Below the pieces are notes generated by a model. It was given only the letters and a program-made list of their open reading frames with translations, was not told where the DNA came from and ran no database searches. Shown piece after piece: positions 4,054 to 32,257 of a DNA stretch of 64,000 nt (within the stretch, counting starts at the first letter, position 1; every line of letters starts with the position of its first letter). Location: positions 1 to 64,000 of the IMG/VR virus record IMGVR_UViG_3300021197_001931, one strand, 5' to 3'. The position numbers and the translations under genes are program-made. This stretch comes from a virus.

Positions 4054-4390
4054 GGGGATGAAATGGTTTCGACAGGATAAGGAAGTTGGATAGTGCAAGC
4101 AACCTAATAAAATCAATGGTTTAAAACTTAATTTTAAAAATCAATTGCCAATAACAGCAATTACTCTGAATTAGCTCTAGCAGCTTAATTCCTGGGCTTC
4201 CCTGAGCCCAGTGTCCAAGAGGGGAAAATTAAATTGGATCCCTACTTTGTAGGTGTGCCTCACCTTTGACCACGGGGAGGTGTTGGAATTAGTGGCGAAT
4301 TTGCTGATTTAAGTTAAATCAGATAAGCTTGTGAATGACTTGAAAAAATAATTATTGTGGACGTGGGTTCGACTCCCACCATCTCCACCA
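4054..4390 (+). ncRNA. ssrA: Phage-encoded tmRNA (one-piece, CCA encoded)
   Basis: The 5' end GGGGATGAAATGGTTTCGAC is the standard tmRNA start. The 3' end carries a T-arm (GTGGG-TTCGACT-CCCAC) and CATCTCC-ACCA; GGGGATG pairs with CATCTCC to close the acceptor stem (one G-U). An internal open frame at 4147-4188 encodes the tag ANNSNYSELALAA and stops at TAA. tmRNA with SmpB rescues stalled ribosomes and adds a degradation tag. The tag follows the bacterial pattern (N-rich start, ALAA end). CCA is encoded and there is no sign of the two-piece permuted form. SmpB is not in this window, so host SmpB is presumably used. Confidence 0.97.
4147..4188 (+). other. tmRNA tag reading frame (ANNSNYSELALAA)
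   Basis: The resume codon is read as GCC (4147-4149), followed by AAT AAC AGC AAT TAC TCT GAA, then TTA GCT CTA GCA GCT and TAA. The 13-residue tag ends in LAA, the C-terminal signal bound by ClpX in bacteria. The resume codon is assigned from the usual Ala start and the ANN opening; it is not marked by sequence alone. Confidence 0.9.
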
Positions 4391-8706: not shown

Positions 8707-8991
8707 ATGGAAGAACTAAACGCTGAAAAATTTGATGAATGGGATAATCCCGACCTTAGAAAAGTGGTCGAAGAAGACAACGAGTTAAAGTCGTGGCTTG
8801 TGGAGTATGTTGGGAACAAACATGAACCAGAGGACGGCAATGTCACTGTAGAAATGATTGTAGTAACATTGGCTGAAGAGTTTCCTGAGTTTACGCTAGC
8901 TGTTGCTGGAGAAAACTTCCTTAGAGGGTATCACCAGGCACTTTGCGATCTTGAGACGGAATCCAATGAAAATAAACATAACAAGGCGTAA
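8707..8991 (+). CDS. Hypothetical acidic protein
   Basis: Unrecognised; 94 residues, acidic, mainly helical (KWLVEYVGN-type and MIVVTLAEEFPEFTLAVAGENFLRGYHQA). The ATG at 8707 directly follows the stop of the PhoH-like gene; the frame extends 10 codons further upstream into that gene, but this start is preferred to avoid overlap. It shares 26 bases with the next gene. No catalytic motif is seen. Confidence 0.65.
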   Translation: MEELNAEKFDEWDNPDLRKVVEEDNELKSWLVEYVGNKHEPEDGNVTVEMIVVTLAEEFPEFTLAVAGENFLRGYHQALCDLETESNENKHNKA

Positions 8992-9676
8992 CCTTAGTAT
9001 CTATATTAAGGAGAGTGCCACCCACAATTTATCAAGAAGAAAAGAATATTATTTTTTTGGGGACATTTTAGTTTTAGTAAAAGATCCTGTTCCACATGAC
9101 ATTGATTTGCACGCCTGCCTAAGAGAGGTGGAGGTTAGAATACCAAAACACTTAGTATATGGTTTGGATTCAATTTTTGTTGGTCAATTCCCTGAATTTG
9201 AAAAGCAGCAAATAAACGCTTTTTATAGAGATGGCGCCATATATATTACAAATGACCAAGAGACTGATGATGATTTTATTGATGATTTGGTGCACGAAAT
9301 AGCCCATTTAGCTGAAAAGACTTATGGAGCAGATATTTATGGAGATCAAAGTGTATCAAGAGAGTTTTTAGGAAAAAGGCAGAAGCTCTTTTATATGCTA
9401 AAAGAGGAAGGTTTTGATGTCTCCCCAAAAGACTTTATGAATCTTGACTATTCTTTTGAATTTGATATGTTTTTGCTTGAAAAAGTCGGATATCCGATGC
9501 TTACACAATTAACTGTTGGTTTGTTTTTAACTCCTTATGGAACAACAAGCTTGGCAGAATATTTTGCTGAGGCTTTTGAATTTTATGTTTTAAGGGATCA
9601 AAAAACAGTAAAGAGCATATCTCCCCTTTGTCATTTAAAAATAAAAGAACTATTGGAAATTAAAGATGCTTTCTGA
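8966..9676 (+). CDS. Putative zinc metallopeptidase (HEIAH ... EYFAEAF)
   Basis: A 236-residue protein with HEIAH in LVHEIAHLAEKTYG (about 99-112) and a downstream glutamate-rich helix, SLAEYFAEAFEFYVL (about 194-208). The HExxH plus E-x-F-A-E-x-F arrangement resembles the catalytic domain of the anthrax lethal factor-like (ATLF) gluzincins, where the downstream Glu is the third zinc ligand; I infer this from the motif only. No signal peptide is seen. The ATG (MKINITRR) is preferred over an upstream start that would lengthen the overlap. Its substrate is unknown; it might act on host proteins or on phage structural proteins. Confidence 0.7.
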   Translation: MKINITRRNLSIYIKESATHNLSRRKEYYFFGDILVLVKDPVPHDIDLHACLREVEVRIPKHLVYGLDSIFVGQFPEFEKQQINAFYRDGAIYITNDQETDDDFIDDLVHEIAHLAEKTYGADIYGDQSVSREFLGKRQKLFYMLKEEGFDVSPKDFMNLDYSFEFDMFLLEKVGYPMLTQLTVGLFLTPYGTTSLAEYFAEAFEFYVLRDQKTVKSISPLCHLKIKELLEIKDAF

Positions 9677-18319: not shown

Positions 18320-19165
18320 ATGGGATTAGGTGGATATTTAACTTGGACTGCTGTTGCAAGAGAGCTAGTTAAAAACAATAAAGCAAAAAAACTATTTCCA
18401 TCTGAAGTGCATGGGAATAAATATAAGGAAGTGAAGAGCCCAATATGGCTTAATAATCCATACTTGTCTACAGACAGACAAGAGCTTATAGAAAAGCAAG
18501 CCGCAGTCTTGCCTTTAAATAATCGAGAAATAAGTTATTGTAAATATGATGACGCTGTAAGGTGCGTTCAACGAGCCGATAAGCACTGCATTGAACAAAT
18601 GTGTGATTTCTATGGATTAAAAGATCCAGAAATAAAATGTGATTTATTTTTTTCTGACGAAGAACACAGAGATGTAGACAAAATAATCTCAGGCCTTAGT
18701 GAGAGGTTTATAACAATTGAACCACATTCAAAGAAATCATATACTCCAAATAAAGAATATTCTTTTGAAAAGTGGCAGAAAATAGTCAACGTGCTTTCAA
18801 AAGAGATACAAATTGTCCAGGTCGGCAACAAGGATATGCCAATTTTAGAAAATGTTGTTAATATGGTGGGATCAACTACCTTTAGGGAGTGTGCTGGAGT
18901 GATTGGAAGATCCGAATTGTTCCTAAGCACTGAGGGAGGTTTAGCTCATGCCAGCACAGCAGTGAATACAACAGCATTAATAGTTATGACAGGATACCAG
19001 TCTCCAGTTCTCTGGTCATACCCACAGAATATAAACGTTTATATAGGCAACCATGGCCCCTGTGGGTTTAAGATACTTTGCAAAGAATGCGTTCAAGATA
19101 TACACATGCACGATGAAAGCGAAATAGCTGAAAAAGCTATGGAATTTTTAAGGGGTTTGGAATGA
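18320..19165 (+). CDS. GT9 (heptosyltransferase-like) glycosyltransferase
   Basis: A 281-residue GT-B enzyme. The N-terminus MGLGGYLTWTAVARELVKN and the C-terminal LSTEGGLAHASTAVNTTALIV, equivalent to the D/EGGxxHxA signature, match the GT9 family (ADP-heptose:LPS heptosyltransferases). It should transfer a heptose from an ADP-activated donor in the cytoplasm. It is followed at once (4-base overlap) by genes for an HldE-type nucleotidyltransferase and kinase, which strongly supports a heptose role. It is shorter than typical WaaC/WaaF proteins (about 330). Confidence 0.8.
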   Translation: MGLGGYLTWTAVARELVKNNKAKKLFPSEVHGNKYKEVKSPIWLNNPYLSTDRQELIEKQAAVLPLNNREISYCKYDDAVRCVQRADKHCIEQMCDFYGLKDPEIKCDLFFSDEEHRDVDKIISGLSERFITIEPHSKKSYTPNKEYSFEKWQKIVNVLSKEIQIVQVGNKDMPILENVVNMVGSTTFRECAGVIGRSELFLSTEGGLAHASTAVNTTALIVMTGYQSPVLWSYPQNINVYIGNHGPCGFKILCKECVQDIHMHDESEIAEKAMEFLRGLE

Positions 19166-20040
19166 ACAAAAAGCCAGTAGTCCTCGCTTCTGACCACAAT
19201 GGTATCAGCCTTAAAAAAAGTCTTTCTACTTTTTTAAAACAAAAGGGTTATATTTGTTTAGATATTGGGCCATTTGATCATTCTAAAAAGGTAGACTATG
19301 TTGACTATGCAAACCAACTTTGCCAAATTATAGCTAATGGTGACGCTGATCGAGGAATTTTAATTTGTGGCACCGGAGTTGGAATGAGCATCGCTGCTAA
19401 TAGGTTTTCCGAGATTAGGGCGGCTTTGGTTCATAATGTTCTTACTGCTCCAAAATGTAGAGAGCACAATAATTCTAATGTTTTGTGCTTAGGATCTTGG
19501 GTAACCTCCGAAGCGGAGAGTGAAGAAATTCTTAGCCTATGGATGGATACGCCGTTTGGTGAAGGTCGCCATGTAAAAAGAATTGAAAAAATTTCCAAAA
19601 AGGGTGAGGATGAAATTGTTTTTGCAAATGGAGTTTTTGATATTCTTCATACTGGTCACCTTGAGCTTTTGCGATTTGCTAAAAGCTTGGGAGGTAAGCT
19701 TGTAGTTGGGATTAACTCAGACCGAGCAGTAAAGGCCCTCAAGGGGCCAACACGTCCCATAAATAACGAGAGTGATAGAAAGAAAATGCTAGAATCAATA
19801 GACTGCGTTGATGAAGTTGTTGTTTTTGATGATACAGACACCAAGTCTGTAATTGCCTCTGTGTGTCCTGATGTGCTTGTAAAAGGCGGGGAGTGGACTG
19901 CCGACCAAGTAAGGATCCGAGATGAGGTTCCTGGTAATATAAATATAAAAATCTACCCTCTTGTGGCCGATTATTCCACTACAAATGTTCTAAAAAAAAT
20001 AAAGACTATCGATGGGTGGCAGAAAAGTGGAAATTCTTAA
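19162..20040 (+). CDS. Fusion: RpiB-like isomerase plus HldE-type nucleotidyltransferase
   Basis: A 292-residue two-domain protein. Residues 1-145 are RpiB/LacAB-like: ASDHNGISLKK, catalytic Cys69 in ILICGTGVGMSIAAN and CREHNNSNVLCLG. Residues about 150-292 are an HldE C-terminal-type nucleotidyltransferase: FANGVFDILHTGHLELL with the HxGH motif, VGINSDRAVKALKGP, and LVKGGEW. In Gram-negative heptose synthesis the isomerase step is normally GmhA (a SIS fold) and this transferase makes ADP-heptose. Here an RpiB-type isomerase seems fused to it. Whether the isomerase acts on sedoheptulose 7-phosphate or a pentose phosphate is unknown. The next gene begins 29 bases before this one ends. Confidence 0.85.
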   Translation: MNKKPVVLASDHNGISLKKSLSTFLKQKGYICLDIGPFDHSKKVDYVDYANQLCQIIANGDADRGILICGTGVGMSIAANRFSEIRAALVHNVLTAPKCREHNNSNVLCLGSWVTSEAESEEILSLWMDTPFGEGRHVKRIEKISKKGEDEIVFANGVFDILHTGHLELLRFAKSLGGKLVVGINSDRAVKALKGPTRPINNESDRKKMLESIDCVDEVVVFDDTDTKSVIASVCPDVLVKGGEWTADQVRIRDEVPGNINIKIYPLVADYSTTNVLKKIKTIDGWQKSGNS

Positions 20041-20968
20041 TAAAATATCTCAAAAACGAGTTTTGGTATTGGGCGATACCATTTTAGATAAAACGGTTAA
20101 ATGCCAAACAATAGGGCTTTCATTGGAATCTCCTACCCTGAAAACCAAAGAGGTGGGGAGGGAGATCGCACTTGGAGGCGCTGCCAATGTAGTCAAAAAT
20201 TTGTTGGCGTTAGGGTGTGAATGCACTTTCCTAACGGTTTTAGGTAATGATGAGTATCTTAAATATTATGAAGATTGGAAGTCCAAATCGTTACGATTGC
20301 GCCCCCTGATTACAAAAAGGCAAAATGTAGTAAAGAGCAGATATTGGGTAGAGCGCGGAAATGTAAGTTATAAATACTTGCAAATAAACAGGGGTGATAA
20401 AGATAAATTAAAAAAAAATGAATTTAAAAAATTGTATTCCATTTATGAAGAATGTATAAAAAATGTAGACGCCATTGTCTTAGTTGACTATAATAATGGC
20501 ATATTTTTAGATTCACAATATATAGAAAATCTTATTATTGCGGCTAAAAAGGTGGGAGTTCCAACCGTCTCTAGTTCTCAAATTTCAGATGGATGTAATC
20601 GATATCCTTACTTTAAAAACTCAACGTATATTTGCATGAACCAAGCTGAGGCTTCCTCTAATTTAAGAAATTTTTCTCCGAGTGATGATACAATAATACA
20701 ACTTGTCTCTATTTTAAATTCCAATGTTTGTGTAACTCTGGGAGACAAAGGGTCCATTTTTAGTGATGGTGTGGATATTTTTCGTGAACCACCAAGTAAA
20801 GTAAATGTGATGGATCCATGTGGCGCTGGTGATTCGTTTTTGGCCGCATTCTCTGCTTGCTTGGGGGACAATAATCTTAAATTTTGTAATAAATGGGCAT
20901 CACTTGCCACAACAAAGCTTGGGACAACATGTCCACAAGTGGAGGATCTAAATGAGCCATTCTGTTAA
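20012..20968 (+). CDS. HldE-type PfkB sugar kinase (heptose 7-phosphate kinase-like)
   Basis: A 318-residue PfkB/ribokinase-fold protein. ALGGAANVVKNLLALGC (about 51-67) is the substrate-binding Gly motif, and DPCGAGDSFLAAF (about 269-281) is PfkB signature 2 with the catalytic Asp. The order LVLGDTILDKTVKC at the N-terminus matches the RfaE domain I of HldE, which makes heptose 1,7-bisphosphate. It encodes the kinase half that is normally joined to the nucleotidyltransferase in HldE; in this phage the halves are split, with the second half fused to an isomerase upstream. ATG 20012 and GTG 20027 are both possible starts. Confidence 0.85.
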   Translation: MGGRKVEILNKISQKRVLVLGDTILDKTVKCQTIGLSLESPTLKTKEVGREIALGGAANVVKNLLALGCECTFLTVLGNDEYLKYYEDWKSKSLRLRPLITKRQNVVKSRYWVERGNVSYKYLQINRGDKDKLKKNEFKKLYSIYEECIKNVDAIVLVDYNNGIFLDSQYIENLIIAAKKVGVPTVSSSQISDGCNRYPYFKNSTYICMNQAEASSNLRNFSPSDDTIIQLVSILNSNVCVTLGDKGSIFSDGVDIFREPPSKVNVMDPCGAGDSFLAAFSACLGDNNLKFCNKWASLATTKLGTTCPQVEDLNEPFC

Positions 20969-21638
20969 AAAGATGGTCCTAGAGGCAAATCAGTGGATTG
21001 TGTCTACAGGACTTGTATCATTAACTTGGGGAAATGTAAGCGCATTATCTACAGATAGGCAAAGAGTAATTATCAAGCCTTCTGGTATTGATTTAAAAAC
21101 TGCTACTCCCGAAGACATGTCTGAGTTAAGCCTCTCCGAGAATTATATTTCTGGAAAAAAGCCATCAGTAGATACGCCAACTCACGTTTGTTTGTATCAT
21201 AATTTTAAAAACATTGGGTCCGTTGTACACACTCATTCAAAGTATGCTACAATATGGGCTCAAGCCTATAAAAATATTCCATGCTTTGGAACAACACATG
21301 CAGATTATTTTGATGGGTCAGTACCTTGCATAAGGCCACCAACACCTAAAAAAGTTAAAGATAATTATGAGACTTACACCGGATATTGTATAGTGGAATA
21401 CTTCGAGGACAAAAAGATAGACCCGTTAAGAGTGCCGGGTGCATTAATAGGAGGCCACGGTGTTTTTTGTTGGGGCGAAACTGTTGAAAAAGCTCTGGAA
21501 AATGCTTTTGTTTTAGAAAAGGTTGCAGAGATGGCGTATCACACTAGGCTGCTAGGGCATAAGCGATCTTTGCCAAAATATATTTTACGGAAACATTTTG
21601 ATAGAAAACACGGAGATAAAAAATATTATGGCCAATGA
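20952..21638 (+). CDS. araD: Class II aldolase / L-ribulose-5-phosphate 4-epimerase-like
   Basis: A 228-residue AraD-type enzyme. The zinc ligands H93 and H95 (VVHTHSKYATIWAQA) and H169 (GGHGVFCWG), the SVDTPTH motif, TTHADYF and the ending KHFDRKHGDKKYYGQ are typical of L-ribulose-5-phosphate 4-epimerase, which links L-ribulose 5-phosphate and D-xylulose 5-phosphate. In a glycan cluster it may instead act on another phosphosugar, and the surrounding RpiB, transaldolase and kinase suggest sugar-phosphate interconversion feeding heptose. The overlap with the kinase gene is 17 bases. Confidence 0.82.
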   Translation: MSHSVKKMVLEANQWIVSTGLVSLTWGNVSALSTDRQRVIIKPSGIDLKTATPEDMSELSLSENYISGKKPSVDTPTHVCLYHNFKNIGSVVHTHSKYATIWAQAYKNIPCFGTTHADYFDGSVPCIRPPTPKKVKDNYETYTGYCIVEYFEDKKIDPLRVPGALIGGHGVFCWGETVEKALENAFVLEKVAEMAYHTRLLGHKRSLPKYILRKHFDRKHGDKKYYGQ

Positions 21639-22038
21639 GGCAAAGTACGGTCGCCAAGAACTTCCTCCGGTGAGCGGGGTAATCAAGGATATCGATAAAT
21701 ATTGGGGCAATATAAAAACTCTTTTTGAAAATGATCAGTATACTGTGAAGAGGATTTATATGCGCGCTGGTACACAGAGTAGCATGGAGTACCATGTTAA
21801 CAAACAAGAAGCATATTACATAGAAACAGGTCGCCTTAAGGTTGGAACTCGAATTGGTAGGGCAAAAAATACCTCATTGATCTTAAACGAGGGAGATGTA
21901 TTCCACATTCCAGTAGGTTTTATGCATATGAGGATAGCCTTAGAAGACACAACAATCATTGAATTTTCTACACTAGATGATGATGCAGACTCTCATATTG
22001 TGGAAGATGGAAAAACATATAAACACATAGAGGAATAA
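21628..22038 (+). CDS. Cupin-fold sugar-phosphate isomerase-like protein
   Basis: A 136-residue single cupin domain. WGNIKTLFENDQYTVKRIYM followed by SSMEYHVNKQEAYYIETGRL is the first cupin motif (H and E ligands) and EGDVFHIPVGFMHMR the second, as in the C-terminal domain of type II mannose-6-phosphate isomerases. It might isomerise a sugar phosphate or bind a nucleotide sugar. The ATG at 21628 overlaps the AraD stop by 11 bases; an upstream in-frame ATG would lengthen the overlap. Its reaction is not certain. Confidence 0.7.
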   Translation: MANEAKYGRQELPPVSGVIKDIDKYWGNIKTLFENDQYTVKRIYMRAGTQSSMEYHVNKQEAYYIETGRLKVGTRIGRAKNTSLILNEGDVFHIPVGFMHMRIALEDTTIIEFSTLDDDADSHIVEDGKTYKHIEE

Positions 22039-22042
22039 TATA

Positions 22043-22711
22043 ATGAAGCTTTTTTTAGACACAGCAAATATTGAACAAATTGAAGACGCATTTAGAACTG
22101 GGGCCATCTCTGGTGTAACTACAAATCCGTCCTTGTTATCAAAGGAGCCAAAGGCTGACTTTTACGAACACATACAGAAGATCGCAGATCTATGCTCCTC
22201 TAGAGGCAATGGGTGCCCACTAAGTGTGGAAGTTTTTGCCAAGGAGCCTAGAGCAATGGTTGATCAGGCAATGAGGATTGTTAATACTTTGGATTATGAT
22301 AATGTAAATATTAAAATTCCTGTGGGCTACGAGGAACTAGCAGCTATCAATACTCTGTCCAAGGAAGGAGTTAGGGTTAACTGTACATGTTGCTTTACGA
22401 CGACACAAATGCAACTTGCCGCAGCCTCTGGTGCTAGGTATGTTTCCCTGTTTTATAACAGACTCATAGATGTGGGGGGAAATCCCCTGGAGGTGTTAAC
22501 AAGAACTCGTGAATTTATTGAACAAAACAATTTAAATTCAGAAATTATTGCAGGTAGCATTAGAAACTCTTATGATCTGGAAGATTGCTGGAATGCAGGG
22601 GCACATATTGTTACAGCCGGGAGCAATGTTGTAAAGAAGGCAATGGCACACGTTAAGACAGACGAGTCTGTTAATGGATTTCTATCTGATTTTGAAAAAT
22701 GGATAAAGTAA
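22043..22711 (+). CDS. talC: Transaldolase (TalC/MipB type)
   Basis: A 222-residue short transaldolase, the size of bacterial TalC/fructose-6-phosphate aldolase. MKLFLDTANIEQIEDA and GVTTNPSLL are the family start, the Schiff-base Lys91 lies in NVNIKIPV, and VNCTCCFTTTQM and SLFYNRL follow. Transaldolases move a three-carbon unit to form sedoheptulose 7-phosphate or fructose 6-phosphate. The short form is well known in marine cyanophages, where it is an auxiliary metabolic gene. Here, placed in a heptose cluster, it could supply sedoheptulose 7-phosphate. It is followed by a HAD phosphatase in a 13-base overlap. Confidence 0.9.
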   Translation: MKLFLDTANIEQIEDAFRTGAISGVTTNPSLLSKEPKADFYEHIQKIADLCSSRGNGCPLSVEVFAKEPRAMVDQAMRIVNTLDYDNVNIKIPVGYEELAAINTLSKEGVRVNCTCCFTTTQMQLAAASGARYVSLFYNRLIDVGGNPLEVLTRTREFIEQNNLNSEIIAGSIRNSYDLEDCWNAGAHIVTAGSNVVKKAMAHVKTDESVNGFLSDFEKWIK

Positions 22712-23028
22712 CTTACGTTTTTGACATAGATGGCACTATTTGCACGAATAGCGGGCCAAACTACGAGCTATCTTCGCCCTACCCAGATAGGATAAACAAG
22801 ATAAACGCACTTTATGATCAAGGGCATACAATTTTGTTTTTGACTGCTAGGGGCATGGGAAGACATAAGAATAATCAAATTAAAGCAATTAATAGTTTGT
22901 ATGAGTTAACCAAAGAACAGCTAGATTCATGGGGTGTAAAGTATCACGATCTATTTTTAGGAAAACCACAAGGTGATCTTTACATTGATGATAAAGGGAT
23001 TAACGATAAAAAGTTTTTTGATTGTTGA
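22699..23028 (+). CDS. Small HAD-family phosphatase
   Basis: A 109-residue HAD-fold enzyme. DIDGTIC (about 9-15) is motif I with the nucleophile Asp, FLTARG (about 48-53) is motif II, and YIDDKGIND (about 98-106) is motif III/IV. Short HAD proteins of this type occur in capsule and lipopolysaccharide clusters. Between kinase and transferase steps of ADP-heptose synthesis a phosphatase (GmhB) removes the 7-phosphate; this gene, in the right neighbourhood, may fill that role, but it is smaller than GmhB. Confidence 0.75.
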   Translation: MDKVTYVFDIDGTICTNSGPNYELSSPYPDRINKINALYDQGHTILFLTARGMGRHKNNQIKAINSLYELTKEQLDSWGVKYHDLFLGKPQGDLYIDDKGINDKKFFDC

Positions 23029-25285: not shown

Positions 25286-26245
25286 GTGAATTTTATTCTA
25301 GTTGAGATGACGTTCTTACGATATTATATACCTCTTATTGCAGAGGGTAACAAAAGGGGTATAAAATCAAAAGTTTTTGTTGGCCCAAGTCATAAGTACA
25401 ATTGTCCACTAAGATTCAAGGGAGTGTTACTTGAACTTTCAAGGGAATATAATTTTGAAATTATAGAAGCCTCTAAAGCAAAAGAATATAATGGATATTT
25501 TTTCTTAATTGAGGCAACGGCCATAGATCTATTGAACCCCAATCAGAAAAAAGTTTCTTTATCTTATACAACAACTTTTTCTTATCATGCTCACACGTAC
25601 AGAGACAAAGTTGATTACATAGTATATCCTAGTGAGTTTATGGTTGATTTTTACAACCTAAAAAGAACAGAAAAGGATTTATGTCTTGGAGTTCCAAAAT
25701 ACGATATTGTCTTGAATAAGGAAGAAATAAATAAAAAGTATAACTTAACTGACAACAAAAAGGCCCTTTTTATAGCGCCAAAATTAAGAGATCTTAATAA
25801 AATAGATCTATCAAGAATATACAAAATTTTTAAAAATGAAGGATACGATATTTTAGTAAAAACAAGAGGAAAAGACCCAATTCCCAATAATCTTAGAGGG
25901 GATCGATATTTTACAGACAATAGTTGGCACCCACACACTTCAATGGAGCTAATGGAAGCCTCCAATATAGTGGTAAACTTTAGTTCCTCTGTTATTAAAG
26001 AAATAGTCATGCTTAGAAGACCAGTGGTAAACTTTGACATTAAGCCATTTAAGATGTGTTTGCCATTCTTGTATGATTATGAATATTGTCGTAATCTTAA
26101 AAAAGATGCAAACGAACAGCAGATAAAAAATGCAATTAAAGAGTTGACGACAAGACCGTTAGATGATATATTTGATTTATCAATAAAAAGTCATTTATTT
26201 AGTGGCAATTCATCAAAAAGAATTTTAGATCGACTAGGATTATAG
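25286..26245 (+). CDS. GT-B-like transferase (glycerophosphotransferase-like)
   Basis: A 319-residue protein. Signature-like parts are LIAEGNKRGIKSKVF near the N-terminus, YPSEFMVDFYNL, LGVPKYDI, and MEASNIVVNFSSSVIKEIVMLRRPVV near the C-terminus, the layout of CDP-glycerol/UDP-GlcNAc 2-epimerase type GT-B proteins. The actual transfer is unknown. GTG at 25286, just after the previous stop and 8 bases after GAAGG, is chosen; the frame runs open 18 codons further upstream. It is followed without gap by the NeuA-like gene. Confidence 0.65.
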   Translation: MNFILVEMTFLRYYIPLIAEGNKRGIKSKVFVGPSHKYNCPLRFKGVLLELSREYNFEIIEASKAKEYNGYFFLIEATAIDLLNPNQKKVSLSYTTTFSYHAHTYRDKVDYIVYPSEFMVDFYNLKRTEKDLCLGVPKYDIVLNKEEINKKYNLTDNKKALFIAPKLRDLNKIDLSRIYKIFKNEGYDILVKTRGKDPIPNNLRGDRYFTDNSWHPHTSMELMEASNIVVNFSSSVIKEIVMLRRPVVNFDIKPFKMCLPFLYDYEYCRNLKKDANEQQIKNAIKELTTRPLDDIFDLSIKSHLFSGNSSKRILDRLGL

Positions 26246-26808
26246 TGAAAATAGTTGCAATTATACCTGCTAGGGGCGGAAGCAAAAGATTAAAAAGAAA
26301 AAACATATACCCAATATGGGGAAAGCCAATGCTATATTGGTCAATTTTAGCTTGTAAGCAATCAAATTATGATATTGATGTTTGGGTTAGCACTGAAGAT
26401 ACAGAAATTGCAAATATTGCTAAACAATACGGAGCAAAAGTGGTGACTAGAGACGATTCTTTAGCTGATGATAAGACTTTTAAACAAGCAGTCATACGAG
26501 ATGCTGCTAGTAAAATTAATAACTTAGAGGGTAAAAAAGATATTTATATATCACTACAAGCAAATTCGCCAAACATACATTCTGAAAACATAGACGATGC
26601 TATCGATGTTCTCCTAAAACACAATAGAAAAGAAATTATTAGTGTTGATGAGAATTTAATGCAAAACGCAGCCTTCCGAGTTTTTAGAGGCGATTATGTT
26701 TTTCAAGAGGATTTGAGCACATGTTGTGGTGTTTTCGTTTGCCCACTAGAGGATGTTCATACCTTGGATGATGTAAAACAAATAGAGAAAAAAAGGAGAA
26801 GAACGTGA
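26245..26808 (+). CDS. neuA: CMP-nonulosonate (sialic acid) cytidylyltransferase-like
   Basis: A 187-residue protein, shorter than typical NeuA (about 220-230). The start IIPARGGSKRLKRKNI (about 5-20) is the family CTP-binding signature, followed by GKPMLYWSI and STEDTEIANIA. It should activate a nonulosonic acid with CTP. The GTG start overlaps the previous stop by one base. The next gene is a NeuB-like synthase, so the two form a nonulosonic acid pair. A C-terminal part common in longer relatives is missing. Confidence 0.82.
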   Translation: MKIVAIIPARGGSKRLKRKNIYPIWGKPMLYWSILACKQSNYDIDVWVSTEDTEIANIAKQYGAKVVTRDDSLADDKTFKQAVIRDAASKINNLEGKKDIYISLQANSPNIHSENIDDAIDVLLKHNRKEIISVDENLMQNAAFRVFRGDYVFQEDLSTCCGVFVCPLEDVHTLDDVKQIEKKRRRT

Positions 26809-27518
26809 CAGATATTTATATAATCAGCGAACTGTGTGGCCAATGGGGTGGATCTATCCGAAGAACGGAGCAGATGATACTACAATCAAAACTTGCTGGT
26901 GCCGATGCTGTAAAAGTTCAACTATACGACACATATCGAATGCCGGGAGAGAATCGTCAAATTTGGGAGTACCTCTCGATGACCAAGGAGCAGTTCCTAC
27001 ATCTTAAAGATTTTTCCGATTCTCTAAATATAGACTTTTTTGCATCTGCTTTTCATCCTGATAGGTTCCAGTGGATTTTGGACGCAGGATTGCAAACAAA
27101 TAAAATTGCAAGTATGCTGGTAAATCATGACCCTACCCTTTGCAGGGAAATGATTGACAGCGGCATGTTAACATACTGCTCTCTCGGACGCTGGGATGGA
27201 GAGGGTTACCCCTTTGAACAAGAGAATGTAAAATATTTTCACTGTGTATCAAAGTATCCACATACAATTGATGAGGCACTAGCATTAATGCCTGATAGAT
27301 TTGATGATCGTCTAGTCGGATACAGCGACCACACAGACAGCATTGAGGCTTGTGTTGAGGCTGTTAAACGAGGGGCAAAGATACTAGAAAAACATTTTAC
27401 AATAGACAAGGGCCTCCAGAGCAAGACCGAGGGGGCACACACTTGTTCTATGGTTATGGAAGAGTTAGCAGAGTTAAGAAATTTGTGTGATAAACACACG
27501 GGAGGAAATAATGGGTAA
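26805..27518 (+). CDS. neuB: NeuB-like nonulosonic acid synthase, lacks SAF domain
   Basis: A 237-residue TIM-barrel protein that keeps the NeuB core: ISELCGQWGGSIRRTEQMI (about 6-24), AGADAVKVQLYD (about 31-42), YSDHTDSIEACVEAVKRG (about 174-191) and EKHFTID (about 196-202). NeuB condenses phosphoenolpyruvate with an N-acetylated hexose to make sialic acid or relatives. Typical NeuB is about 340 residues and has a C-terminal SAF (antifreeze-like) domain; here it is absent. The gene overlaps NeuA by 4 bases. Confidence 0.82.
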   Translation: MTDIYIISELCGQWGGSIRRTEQMILQSKLAGADAVKVQLYDTYRMPGENRQIWEYLSMTKEQFLHLKDFSDSLNIDFFASAFHPDRFQWILDAGLQTNKIASMLVNHDPTLCREMIDSGMLTYCSLGRWDGEGYPFEQENVKYFHCVSKYPHTIDEALALMPDRFDDRLVGYSDHTDSIEACVEAVKRGAKILEKHFTIDKGLQSKTEGAHTCSMVMEELAELRNLCDKHTGGNNG

Positions 27519-28722: not shown

Positions 28723-30027
28723 TTGTCAGTGCTAGGAAACAGCATATATGATTTTGTAAAGCAAATTTTTCCAATTTGTAGGAGTATAATGGGAGATGGC
28801 AACCGTCAGACCCTATCGTTAATACGGGAGCACATTCCTATTCAAATACATGAAGTCCCTACTGGATACACAGCGTATGATTGGGAGGTTCCAAAAGAAT
28901 GGAAGATAAAGGATGCTTATGTTTTAAGCCCTGGTGGTGAGAAAATAATAGACTTTAAGAAAAACAATCTTCACGTTGTAAATTATTCAATACCAGTTGA
29001 TATGGAAATTGATCTCTCTGAGTTACAAGAGCATTTGCATTCTACTGCAAAGTTACCAGACGCAATTCCCTACGTTACCTCGTATTATGATAGAAAATGG
29101 GGATTTTGCTTATCAGAAACACAAAGGAAAAGCCTAGTAGATGGAAAATATAAGGTTTATATTGATAGCGATCATGTAGACGGCTCCCTATCGTATGGAG
29201 AACTTATAATACCTGGTGAGACAGATGAGGAAATATTTTTAACATCTTATATATGTCACCCTTCTATGGCGAACAATGAGTGTTCTGGCCCTGCAGTCTT
29301 AACATTCTTGGCAAAATGGTTGATGAATAGAAATAACAAGTATACCTACAGGATTGTGTTCGCCCCAGAAACAATAGGAGCCATTATCTACATAAGCAAG
29401 AATTATGATGCTTTAACAAACAACGTTATTGCTGGTTTTAATTTAAGTTGTGTGGGAGACAATAGAGGATACTCTTTCATGCCATCCAGGCTTGGAAATA
29501 CCTTAGCAGATAAAACTGTTCAACATGTCTTAGAGAACTATGTTGAGTCATACACAAAGCATTCATTTTTATACAAGGGCTCAGATGAGAGGCAGTATTG
29601 TCATCCAAAAGTTGATCTTCCGCTGGTTTCGATCATGAGGTCAAAATACGGAACATTTCCAGAGTACCATACATCAAAAGATGATCTAAACTTTGTCAGC
29701 CCAGAGGGCCTAGCTGGTGGTTTTAGTATTGCGAAGAAATGCTTAGAAGCCTTAGAAATTAATGTTAAATACGAGAATTGTATAACTTGTGAACCAAAAA
29801 TGAGCAAGAGAGATCTACGTCCAAAAGATTGGCACAATAGACACTCTGGAGGAAAGGAAGATATGAGGAAGAATGTTAGAGATATGATGAACGTCATGTT
29901 TTATTGTGACGGGGATCACGATCTAATTGACTTATCCAATAAAATTGAAATACCGTTTCATAAGTGCCAAGAATATATTAAATTATTACGAAATAATGGT
30001 ATTATTAGGGAAATGGATGAAGAATAA
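28723..30027 (+). CDS. DUF4910 aminopeptidase-like protein
   Basis: A 434-residue protein. The pattern CHPSMANNECSGPAVLTFLA (about 178-197), FAPETIGAIIYISKN (about 210-224), KGSDERQYCHP (about 281-291) and FPEYHTSKDDLNFVSPEG (about 308-325) matches the DUF4910 aminopeptidase-like family, which has a zinc-peptidase M28 fold and often sits in polysaccharide clusters. A winged-helix-like tail (KIEIPFHKCQEYIKLLRNNG) follows at the end. Its substrate is unknown; hydrolysis of an amide on a sugar is possible. The TTG start with AAAAAGGA upstream is used; GTG at 28729 is an alternative. Confidence 0.78.
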   Translation: MSVLGNSIYDFVKQIFPICRSIMGDGNRQTLSLIREHIPIQIHEVPTGYTAYDWEVPKEWKIKDAYVLSPGGEKIIDFKKNNLHVVNYSIPVDMEIDLSELQEHLHSTAKLPDAIPYVTSYYDRKWGFCLSETQRKSLVDGKYKVYIDSDHVDGSLSYGELIIPGETDEEIFLTSYICHPSMANNECSGPAVLTFLAKWLMNRNNKYTYRIVFAPETIGAIIYISKNYDALTNNVIAGFNLSCVGDNRGYSFMPSRLGNTLADKTVQHVLENYVESYTKHSFLYKGSDERQYCHPKVDLPLVSIMRSKYGTFPEYHTSKDDLNFVSPEGLAGGFSIAKKCLEALEINVKYENCITCEPKMSKRDLRPKDWHNRHSGGKEDMRKNVRDMMNVMFYCDGDHDLIDLSNKIEIPFHKCQEYIKLLRNNGIIREMDEE

Positions 30028-30799: not shown

Positions 30800-31415
30800 A
30801 TCACCAGACGTGTCTGTAATTATAACAAATTATAACTATGGAAAATATGTAACTAGGGCAGTGCGCAGTTGCCTTGCGCAGAAACACATAAACGTTGAAG
30901 TAGTTGTTGTTGATGATTGTAGCGATGACAATTCATTAGAAACATTGTCCACTTTTAAAGATGATATAAATCTGATAGTTAATAAGAAAAATGTGGGCGT
31001 GGCTGAGTCGTCAAATGTAGGAATAAGGGCGGCAAAAGCTCAATTTGTAATAAGGGTAGACGCAGATGACTTTATAAATTCAGATACGTGCTACATTATG
31101 AAAAGATATTTAGTAGATAACCATGATGCCTTTTGTGTCTCATGTGATTATATTTTAGTTGATGATCATGAGAATTTAATTGAAAGAAAATATGCTGAAA
31201 AAGATAATATTTCTTGTGGTATCATGTATAGGAGAGATCTGCTCATTGAGTCTGGCGGATATAATTCTGATATGCGCCATAAAGAAGAAGAAGAACTGAG
31301 AAAAAGACTAGGAAGTTTTTACAAAATACACCACCTCAGAATGCCATTCTACAGATATAGAATGCACAATACTAACAAAACAAAACAACCGGAGTATAAA
31401 GAATGGAAAATATAG
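30789..31415 (+). CDS. GT2-family glycosyltransferase
   Basis: A 208-residue GT-A enzyme: VSVIITNYNYGKYVTRAVRS (about 8-27), VVVDDCSDDNS (about 39-49), and the DxD-bearing VDADDFINS (about 95-103). It should transfer a sugar from a nucleotide donor with inversion. It is short and ends with a basic helix. It lies between another GT2-like gene and the UDP-glucose dehydrogenase (13-base overlap), matching its use of a precursor made next door. Confidence 0.88.
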   Translation: MKNKSPDVSVIITNYNYGKYVTRAVRSCLAQKHINVEVVVVDDCSDDNSLETLSTFKDDINLIVNKKNVGVAESSNVGIRAAKAQFVIRVDADDFINSDTCYIMKRYLVDNHDAFCVSCDYILVDDHENLIERKYAEKDNISCGIMYRRDLLIESGGYNSDMRHKEEEELRKRLGSFYKIHHLRMPFYRYRMHNTNKTKQPEYKEWKI

Positions 31416-32257
31416 GTATCATCGGGAACGGCTTTGTTGGGTCTGCTATAGCCCATGGGTTCTCATTGCATGGAAATATTAGGATTTATGACCTAGACCC
31501 AATTAAGTCAACACACTCTATAGCAGAGGTTGTAAATGGCTCTAAGTTTATTTTTGTCTCTGTTCCTACGCCTATGAAAAACGTATTAGGCGGGGACATT
31601 GATACTTCCATTATGTACTCCGTCTTTGATGAAATATCAGAAATTAACGATAGAGACGATAATATTTTTATTGTCAAATCCACAATTGTTCCGGGTACCA
31701 TGGAAAAATTAATAGAAAGATATCCGCTATTAAATATAATTCATAGTCCTGAATTCTTAACTGAACGAAGCGCCAGACTTGATTTTATTAATGCGTCTAG
31801 AATTATTTTAGGCGGGGATCCACCCCTCTTAGACGAGGTGGAGGGTCTTCTAAGGGAAAGATTCCCATACATACAAGTAATTAAAACCGATGTAACAACA
31901 GCCCAATTTATAAAGTATATGGCAAATTGTTTCTTTGCAACAAAAGTTTCATTTATGAATGAAATGAAGCAAGCAGCAAACGTGCTAAACGTTGACTGGG
32001 ATGATGCGATGCGAGGCCTTATAACTGATGGAAGAATAGGCAATTCTCATCTAGATGTTCCAGGACATGACGGATATAACGGCTTTGGAGGCAAGTGCTT
32101 TCCTAAAGATTTAAATGCTTTTATCGGATTGTTTAAACAAGTGGGTGTTGATCCAAAAGTTATGACGTCTGTTTGGGACAAAAATTTAGAAGTTCGACAA
32201 GAGTACGATTGGAGAAGCATCGAGGGCGCCGTATCTAAAGGAGAAGAAAATGAGTAG
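31403..32257 (+). CDS. ugd: UDP-glucose/GDP-mannose dehydrogenase, compact form
   Basis: A 284-residue enzyme. The NAD loop GIIGNGFVGSAIA (5-17), VKSTIVPGTM (91-100), HSPEFLTE (114-121) and the catalytic Cys232 in GFGGKCFPKDL (227-237) identify a UDP-glucose 6-dehydrogenase type enzyme, which oxidises a UDP-sugar to its uronate. The usual C-terminal UDP-binding domain (about 100 residues) is missing, making it shorter than typical family members (about 390-450). K171 and N175, the helper residues in IKYMANCF, are present. Compact versions are known from phages. It overlaps the epimerase gene by 8 bases. Confidence 0.82.
   Translation: MENIGIIGNGFVGSAIAHGFSLHGNIRIYDLDPIKSTHSIAEVVNGSKFIFVSVPTPMKNVLGGDIDTSIMYSVFDEISEINDRDDNIFIVKSTIVPGTMEKLIERYPLLNIIHSPEFLTERSARLDFINASRIILGGDPPLLDEVEGLLRERFPYIQVIKTDVTTAQFIKYMANCFFATKVSFMNEMKQAANVLNVDWDDAMRGLITDGRIGNSHLDVPGHDGYNGFGGKCFPKDLNAFIGLFKQVGVDPKVMTSVWDKNLEVRQEYDWRSIEGAVSKGEENE

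Follow-up and report, generated by a model that had tools for sequence, protein, structure and literature searches.

Within IMG/VR record IMGVR_UViG_3300021197_001931, a marine-type virus of 161,719 bases, we analyzed positions 1 to 64,000 (the window, which falls entirely inside the record) and found a six-gene unit at 19162-23028. This cassette, by a judgment slightly better than even, encodes a virus-borne, GmhA-free route that starts at central sugar phosphates and ends in a nucleotide-activated heptose, and the product would probably be a stereoisomer of ADP-D-glycero-D-manno-heptose. Gene identity, linkage, conserved catalytic residues, the lack of GmhA and HldD and the change of Arg113 to Trp were observed directly, whereas all substrates, the nucleotide, the stereochemistry and what the product is used for are inferred. 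The unit consists of an isomerase–nucleotidyltransferase fusion, a kinase, an AraD-like protein, a cupin, a transaldolase and a HAD phosphatase (Table 1). All domains named in an earlier note on this DNA were found where it had placed them. The genes overlap or abut, the fusion beginning in the stop region of a glycosyltransferase family 9 (GT9) gene at 19162, which gives an operon-like layout. No prior description of the cassette was found in a literature search of an open-access library.

Distinct cassettes were counted by requiring less than 95% identity between fusions and at least 4 kb of sequence on the downstream side. At least 28 distinct uncultivated viruses carry the unit, the census giving 28 such cassettes: kinase, cupin and transaldolase were each present in 28/28, the HAD phosphatase in 26 and the AraD-like gene in 25. 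In the first seven loci compared, the same six genes stood in the same order between differing flanks. Across all 28, gene order was nearly fixed; the HAD gene sometimes lay 5′ of the fusion, and the AraD and kinase genes were sometimes swapped, which points to selection on the gene set and not on one fixed stretch. Synteny across the 28 cassettes rules out that the domains are neighbors by chance. Four viruses, with records of 33 to 197 kb, lacked AraD in the entire record, and they occupied two separate places in the isomerase tree, each beside AraD-bearing cassettes. AraD is therefore an optional module, whereas the transaldolase is obligate. In the same tree the fused isomerase domains grouped into a single clade (support 100/97) that excluded the 75 unfused RpiB proteins, and a single origin of the fusion is thus most likely.

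The fusion was also present in six cellular contigs, namely an archaeal metagenome-assembled genome (MAG), two Taylorbacteria, a Longimicrobiales MAG, an Acidobacteria MAG and a Prochlorococcus single cell. The Longimicrobiales (Gemmatimonadota) and Acidobacteriota cassettes (L016 and L017) are near-identical although the MAGs belong to two phyla, so at least one was probably misbinned or recently moved. The fusion was not found among 50,697 isolate-phage records, and a viral search with the kinase as query reached few loci. A second, reduced set of nucleotidyltransferase, kinase and cupin, without RpiB, AraD or transaldolase, was seen at L006:12669-14179, L098:11679-13161 and L013:7637-9087, in two cases close behind the full cassette of the same virus.

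The isomerase domain of the fusion has the RpiB/LacAB fold and the family's Asp11, His12, Cys69, Thr71, His102, Arg136 and Arg140, with 37-43% identity to the closest RpiBs in the PDB. The catalytic Asp11, Cys69, Thr71 and His102 were kept in 38/38 distinct copies. Apart from its fusion to a nucleotidyltransferase, the domain departs from the family in Asn13 and His91-Asn92, both peculiar to the fused clade, and above all at position 113, which is Trp in all 38 distinct fused copies and Arg in 93% of 76 unfused RpiB proteins. One Taylorbacteria genome contains both forms, a fused copy with Trp113 and a stand-alone RpiB with Arg113. In RpiB of M. tuberculosis, Arg113 is a ligand of the phosphate of ribose 5-phosphate, and its loss is the sole active-site difference described between this enzyme and LacAB, which acts on a six-carbon phosphate (PMC3755991). 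The Trp in every fused copy therefore disfavors ordinary ribose-5-phosphate isomerase activity. A substitute for Arg113 resembling LacB Arg39, supplied by Lys43, was considered and rejected, as the position is Ser in 21 of the 38 copies.

The nucleotidyltransferase domain was 41% identical to E. coli HldE-C and matched the structure of HldC from Burkholderia pseudomallei (43-45% identity). The best PDB match of the kinase profile was HldA (4e84, 7e-27), with the next sugar kinase ten orders weaker, and the S-x-E-x-P and K-x-R motifs are common to the cassette kinase and E. coli HldE. The rearranged HldE suggested earlier is supported: the kinase is split off, the nucleotidyltransferase is fused to the RpiB domain, and both are closest to HldA and HldC. 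For the HAD protein, which the same note had proposed as a substitute for GmhB, a phosphatase of this superfamily was confirmed, but of the EcbF/BcbF type; the GmhB model gave no match, TIGR01689 (EcbF/BcbF) matched instead, and the profile hit a capsule biosynthesis protein (9iqw, 2.7e-20).

In the transaldolase, Lys91, Glu63 and Phe137 were present in 37-38 of 38 aligned copies. We take the combination of a Schiff-base Lys with Glu and Phe, where fructose-6-phosphate aldolase has Gln59 and Tyr131, to mark a transaldolase and not that aldolase, in agreement with the initial assignment of the gene. An obligate transaldolase with Glu63 and Phe137 fits a need for sedoheptulose 7-phosphate. The AraD-like protein shares 50% identity with the L-ribulose-5-phosphate 4-epimerase AraD of E. 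coli and all its metal and acid-base residues: H93, H95, H169 and D118 (34/34 copies) and Y226 (31/31 copies reaching that far) correspond to the three Zn-binding His, Asp120 and Tyr229. Unlike AraD, it has Val in 30/34 copies at the position of Ser75, which presumably belongs to the phosphate pocket (Val, Ile and Thr were seen there), and its score of 264.5 bits lies under the TIGR00760 equivalog cut-off of 389.1. The cupin could not be pinned down by structure: the AlphaFold model was good (predicted local distance difference test score, pLDDT, 85), yet it matched only generic cupins, including D-lyxose isomerases, oxalate decarboxylase, cysteine dioxygenase and CapF. The second His of its HxH motif is replaced by Lys or Asn. 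The earlier note gave no role to AraD, a member of a C4-epimerase family, or to the cupin; because the classical pathway uses neither, a product other than the classical ADP-manno-heptose is conceivable.

With the classical pathway (GmhA, HldE or HldA plus HldC, GmhB, HldD) the cassette shares an HldA-like kinase, an HldC/HldE-C-like nucleotidyltransferase and a HAD phosphatase, and both would draw on a supply of sedoheptulose 7-phosphate. It differs in having no GmhA (SIS) and no HldD, in the separation of the kinase from a nucleotidyltransferase that is fused to RpiB, in the EcbF/BcbF type of its HAD protein, and in the additional AraD-like enzyme, cupin and transaldolase. The ADP-heptose pathway of the earlier note is accordingly supported in part, by the HldA/HldC-like enzymes, the transaldolase, the HAD protein and the missing GmhA, and is not supported with regard to HldD, GmhB and GT9. 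GmhA (SIS_2, PF13580) was found neither in the 161.7-kb record nor in any of 45 virus records, and none of the 45 contained a short-chain dehydrogenase/reductase (SDR) above the HldD cut-off (TIGR02197). The SDR at 32250, put forward as a stand-in for HldD, was rejected, being as near to GalE (99 bits) as to HldD (93 bits) and far under the cut-off of 274.6.

The GT9 gene, originally grouped with the six, was excluded from an otherwise real unit. It borders few cassettes, most having no adjoining GT9, and the window copy lacks the catalytic Asp13 of WaaC (GLGGYL versus SMGDVL, with Gly in place of Asp). The Asp is kept in the GT9 proteins of L014, L015, L019, L101 and L102, and a comparable gene of 283 amino acids lies 5′ of the cassette in L118. 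In three cellular contigs a complete, divergently oriented GT9 gene with the catalytic Asp adjoins the fusion, which counts in favor of a heptose product; two of these three genomes contained no further HldE-C-like gene, though the MAGs are incomplete.

Four of the six genes have homologues in the cyanophages P-SSM2 (PSSM2_309-313), S-SM2, Sf-FS3 and S-CAM3, with identities to the cassette of 52-59% for the HAD protein, 38-45% for the nucleotidyltransferase, 32-36% for the cupin and about 25% for the kinase. The SDR beside this set scored 207-230 bits against HldD and about 50 against GalE in the three phages scored (P-SSM2, S-SM2 and Sf-FS3), which marks it as a true relative of HldD, unlike the SDR at 32250. 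An HldD-like SDR next to the shared genes indicates that the cyanophage set is of the ADP-heptose type, and this strengthens the case that the shared core serves a heptose. Like the cassette, the set showed no GmhA in the regions read; unlike it, it includes the HldD-like SDR and is missing RpiB and transaldolase. A distant class II aldolase occurs in S-SM2. The cyanophage genes labeled “phosphoheptose isomerase” (L181:9110-9454 and L182:13357-13686; also in L183 and L184) are wrongly named, as they are HAD phosphatases, and those labeled “cysteine dioxygenase” or cupin (L181-L184, the same four phages) belong with the cassette cupin. We re-read them as the HAD phosphatase and cupin of an ADP-heptose-type set.

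In the route that we propose, the transaldolase would supply sedoheptulose 7-phosphate and the AraD-like enzyme, where present, would invert C4 of the ketose to give D-manno-heptulose 7-phosphate. The RpiB/LacAB-type domain, replacing GmhA, would make an aldoheptose 7-phosphate from the ketose 7-phosphate; the HldA-like kinase would then phosphorylate C1, the HAD protein, replacing GmhB, would strip the C7 phosphate, and the HldC-like domain of the fusion would add a nucleotide, probably AMP. The cupin might be an additional isomerase, or the nucleotide sugar might be its substrate. Glycosyltransferases encoded in the polysaccharide block around the unit would use the product, which is likely to end up in a glycan of the virion or of the infected cell.

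At C3-C4, sedoheptulose 7-phosphate has the configuration of xylulose 5-phosphate, the natural substrate of AraD. Tagatose 6-phosphate, whose homologue with seven carbons is D-manno-heptulose 7-phosphate, is turned into the galacto aldose by LacAB-type isomerases. The series transaldolase, AraD, RpiB would thus lead to D-glycero-D-galacto-heptose 7-phosphate as the substrate for kinase, phosphatase and nucleotidyltransferase, and cassettes without AraD would make a different isomer; this is an argument from stereochemistry and does not amount to evidence. A bolder proposal, which we put forward tentatively, is that of a mobile GmhA-free pathway in which a LacAB-like isomerase–nucleotidyltransferase fusion, with an optional C4-epimerase derived from AraD, makes heptose configurations foreign to the classical route, and in which acquiring or losing a single gene would switch the sugar. 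D-glycero-D-galacto-heptose with AraD and another isomer without it would be a conceivable, if still doubtful, example.

Several observations weigh against a heptose product. RpiB, AraD and transaldolase are all pentose-phosphate enzymes as well, the scheme gives the cupin no firm role, and the window GT9 is without its catalytic Asp. Both heptose-like enzymes score below the NCBIfam equivalog cut-offs, the nucleotidyltransferase domain with 146 bits versus 181.5 (TIGR02199, adenylyltransferase) and the kinase with 128 versus 345 (TIGR02198, HldE kinase). Trp113 alone does not prove a longer over a shorter substrate, and E. coli RpiB accepts allose 6-phosphate despite having the Arg. Moreover, the known products of RpiB/LacAB enzymes are R-configured at C2, and direct action on sedoheptulose 7-phosphate would therefore yield the gluco and not the manno isomer.

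These points leave room for a nucleotide-pentose route, which we regard as unlikely. AraD would here convert xylulose 5-phosphate to L-ribulose 5-phosphate and the RpiB domain would form an aldopentose 5-phosphate; kinase, HAD protein and nucleotidyltransferase would, with the same low probability, go on to a nucleoside diphosphate pentose, the transaldolase merely replenishing pentose phosphates. The nearness of the AraD-like protein to authentic L-ribulose-5-phosphate 4-epimerase, with its catalytic residues complete, speaks for such a route, as do the membership of RpiB in a pentose isomerase family and the pentose-modified DNA known from some phages (PMC6024577, PMC12838424). However, Arg113, the ligand of the pentose phosphate, is gone from every fused copy, AraD is dispensable when the transaldolase is not, and kinase and nucleotidyltransferase are closest to heptose enzymes. 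For the phages published with such DNA, a SIS isomerase and other nucleotidyltransferases are named, not the cassette set. The virus record contains no thymidylate-synthase homologue, which also counts against the pentose route, and a role in DNA modification was rejected on these two grounds.

Still less probable, in our estimate, is that the cupin is the true substitute for GmhA and the product an ordinary ADP-heptose, RpiB, AraD and transaldolase only channeling carbon to sedoheptulose 7-phosphate. The cupin is indeed common to the full cassette and to the cyanophage set of nucleotidyltransferase, kinase, HAD, cupin and HldD, which has neither RpiB nor GmhA; it resembles mannose-6-phosphate isomerase (PF01050), and cupin sugar isomerases were among its structure matches. 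That search was unspecific, however, the altered HxH motif speaks against such a function, the window has no HldD, and the RpiB–nucleotidyltransferase fusion and the change of Arg113 would be left unexplained. The activation of a tetrose or hexose by the same chemistry (for instance erythrose/erythrulose 4-phosphate or tagatose/galactose 6-phosphate) appears the most improbable of these alternatives. Relatives of RpiB do use erythrulose 4-phosphate and tagatose 6-phosphate (the NF051858 and LacB models match), and erythrose 4-phosphate and fructose 6-phosphate are further products of the transaldolase, but the closest relatives of the two activating enzymes are an HldA-type kinase and an HldC-type nucleotidyltransferase, and GT9 adjoins the fusion in cellular contigs.

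If the heptose route is correct, it would be an independent way to a nucleotide-activated heptose in which a non-homologous isomerase replaces GmhA, a target of antibacterial inhibitors, and for which viruses are the main vehicle of spread. A further suggestion is that transaldolase in phages, usually taken as a carbon-flow gene, can be devoted to one step in making sugar nucleotides.

The coordinates of the cassette and the adjoining GT9 gene are given in Table 1. The cupin open reading frame had been listed from a TTG at 21598; the ATG used in the table fits its relatives better.

Table 1. Genes of the cassette and the adjoining GT9 gene, in window coordinates.
Feature	Position	Strand	Matches and remarks
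GT9-like glycosyltransferase, 281 amino acids	18320..19165	+	PF01075 28.6 bits (cut-off 22); neighbor, outside the conserved unit
Fusion of RpiB/LacAB-type isomerase (residues 1-145) and HldC/HldE-C-type nucleotidyltransferase (residues 146-282)	19162..20040	+	PF02502 165.6, PF01467 78.3, TIGR02199 145.7 bits
PfkB-family kinase, nearest HldA / HldE kinase domain	20012..20968	+	TIGR02198 128 bits
AraD-like class II aldolase/4-epimerase	20952..21638	+	PF00596 152 bits; PDB 1jdi 1e-66; optional member of the unit
Cupin	21628..22038	+	PF00190 40 bits, PF01050 26.7 bits
TalC/FSA-family transaldolase, TalC-type	22043..22711	+	TIGR00875 169 bits; phrog_440 3.6e-54
Short HAD phosphatase, EcbF/BcbF type	22699..23028	+	TIGR01689 1.7e-9; DxDxT motif

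Around the cassette lie genes for glycosyltransferases and methyltransferases together with NeuB-like, cytidylyltransferase and UDP-glucose dehydrogenase-like genes, and this sugar block is followed by endolysin-like and baseplate genes. The cytidylyltransferase-like (187 amino acids), NeuB-like (237) and UDP-glucose dehydrogenase-like (284) proteins, encoded at 26245-27518 and 31403-32257, are all below the usual length, the last consisting of the N-terminal and central domains. In the middle of the block, at 28723-30027, a DUF4910/DUF2172 peptidase-like protein with a winged-helix domain is encoded.

The virus record further carries PhoH, a head maturation protease, a baseplate gene, five tRNAs and a transfer-messenger RNA, located at 4054-4390 of the window with the tag ANNSNYSELALAA and adjoining tRNA genes. 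Next to PhoH, at 8903-9676, is a gene for a zinc-protease-like protein (PF07737 match weak and under the cut-off), which was kept in the related viruses L003, L004, L005 and L006; the relative in L002 has a HEIAHS motif. Related viruses also have, 5′ of PhoH, a small nucleotidyltransferase that stands apart from the cassette but belongs to the same superfamily (L002:405-905, L006:1122-1628).

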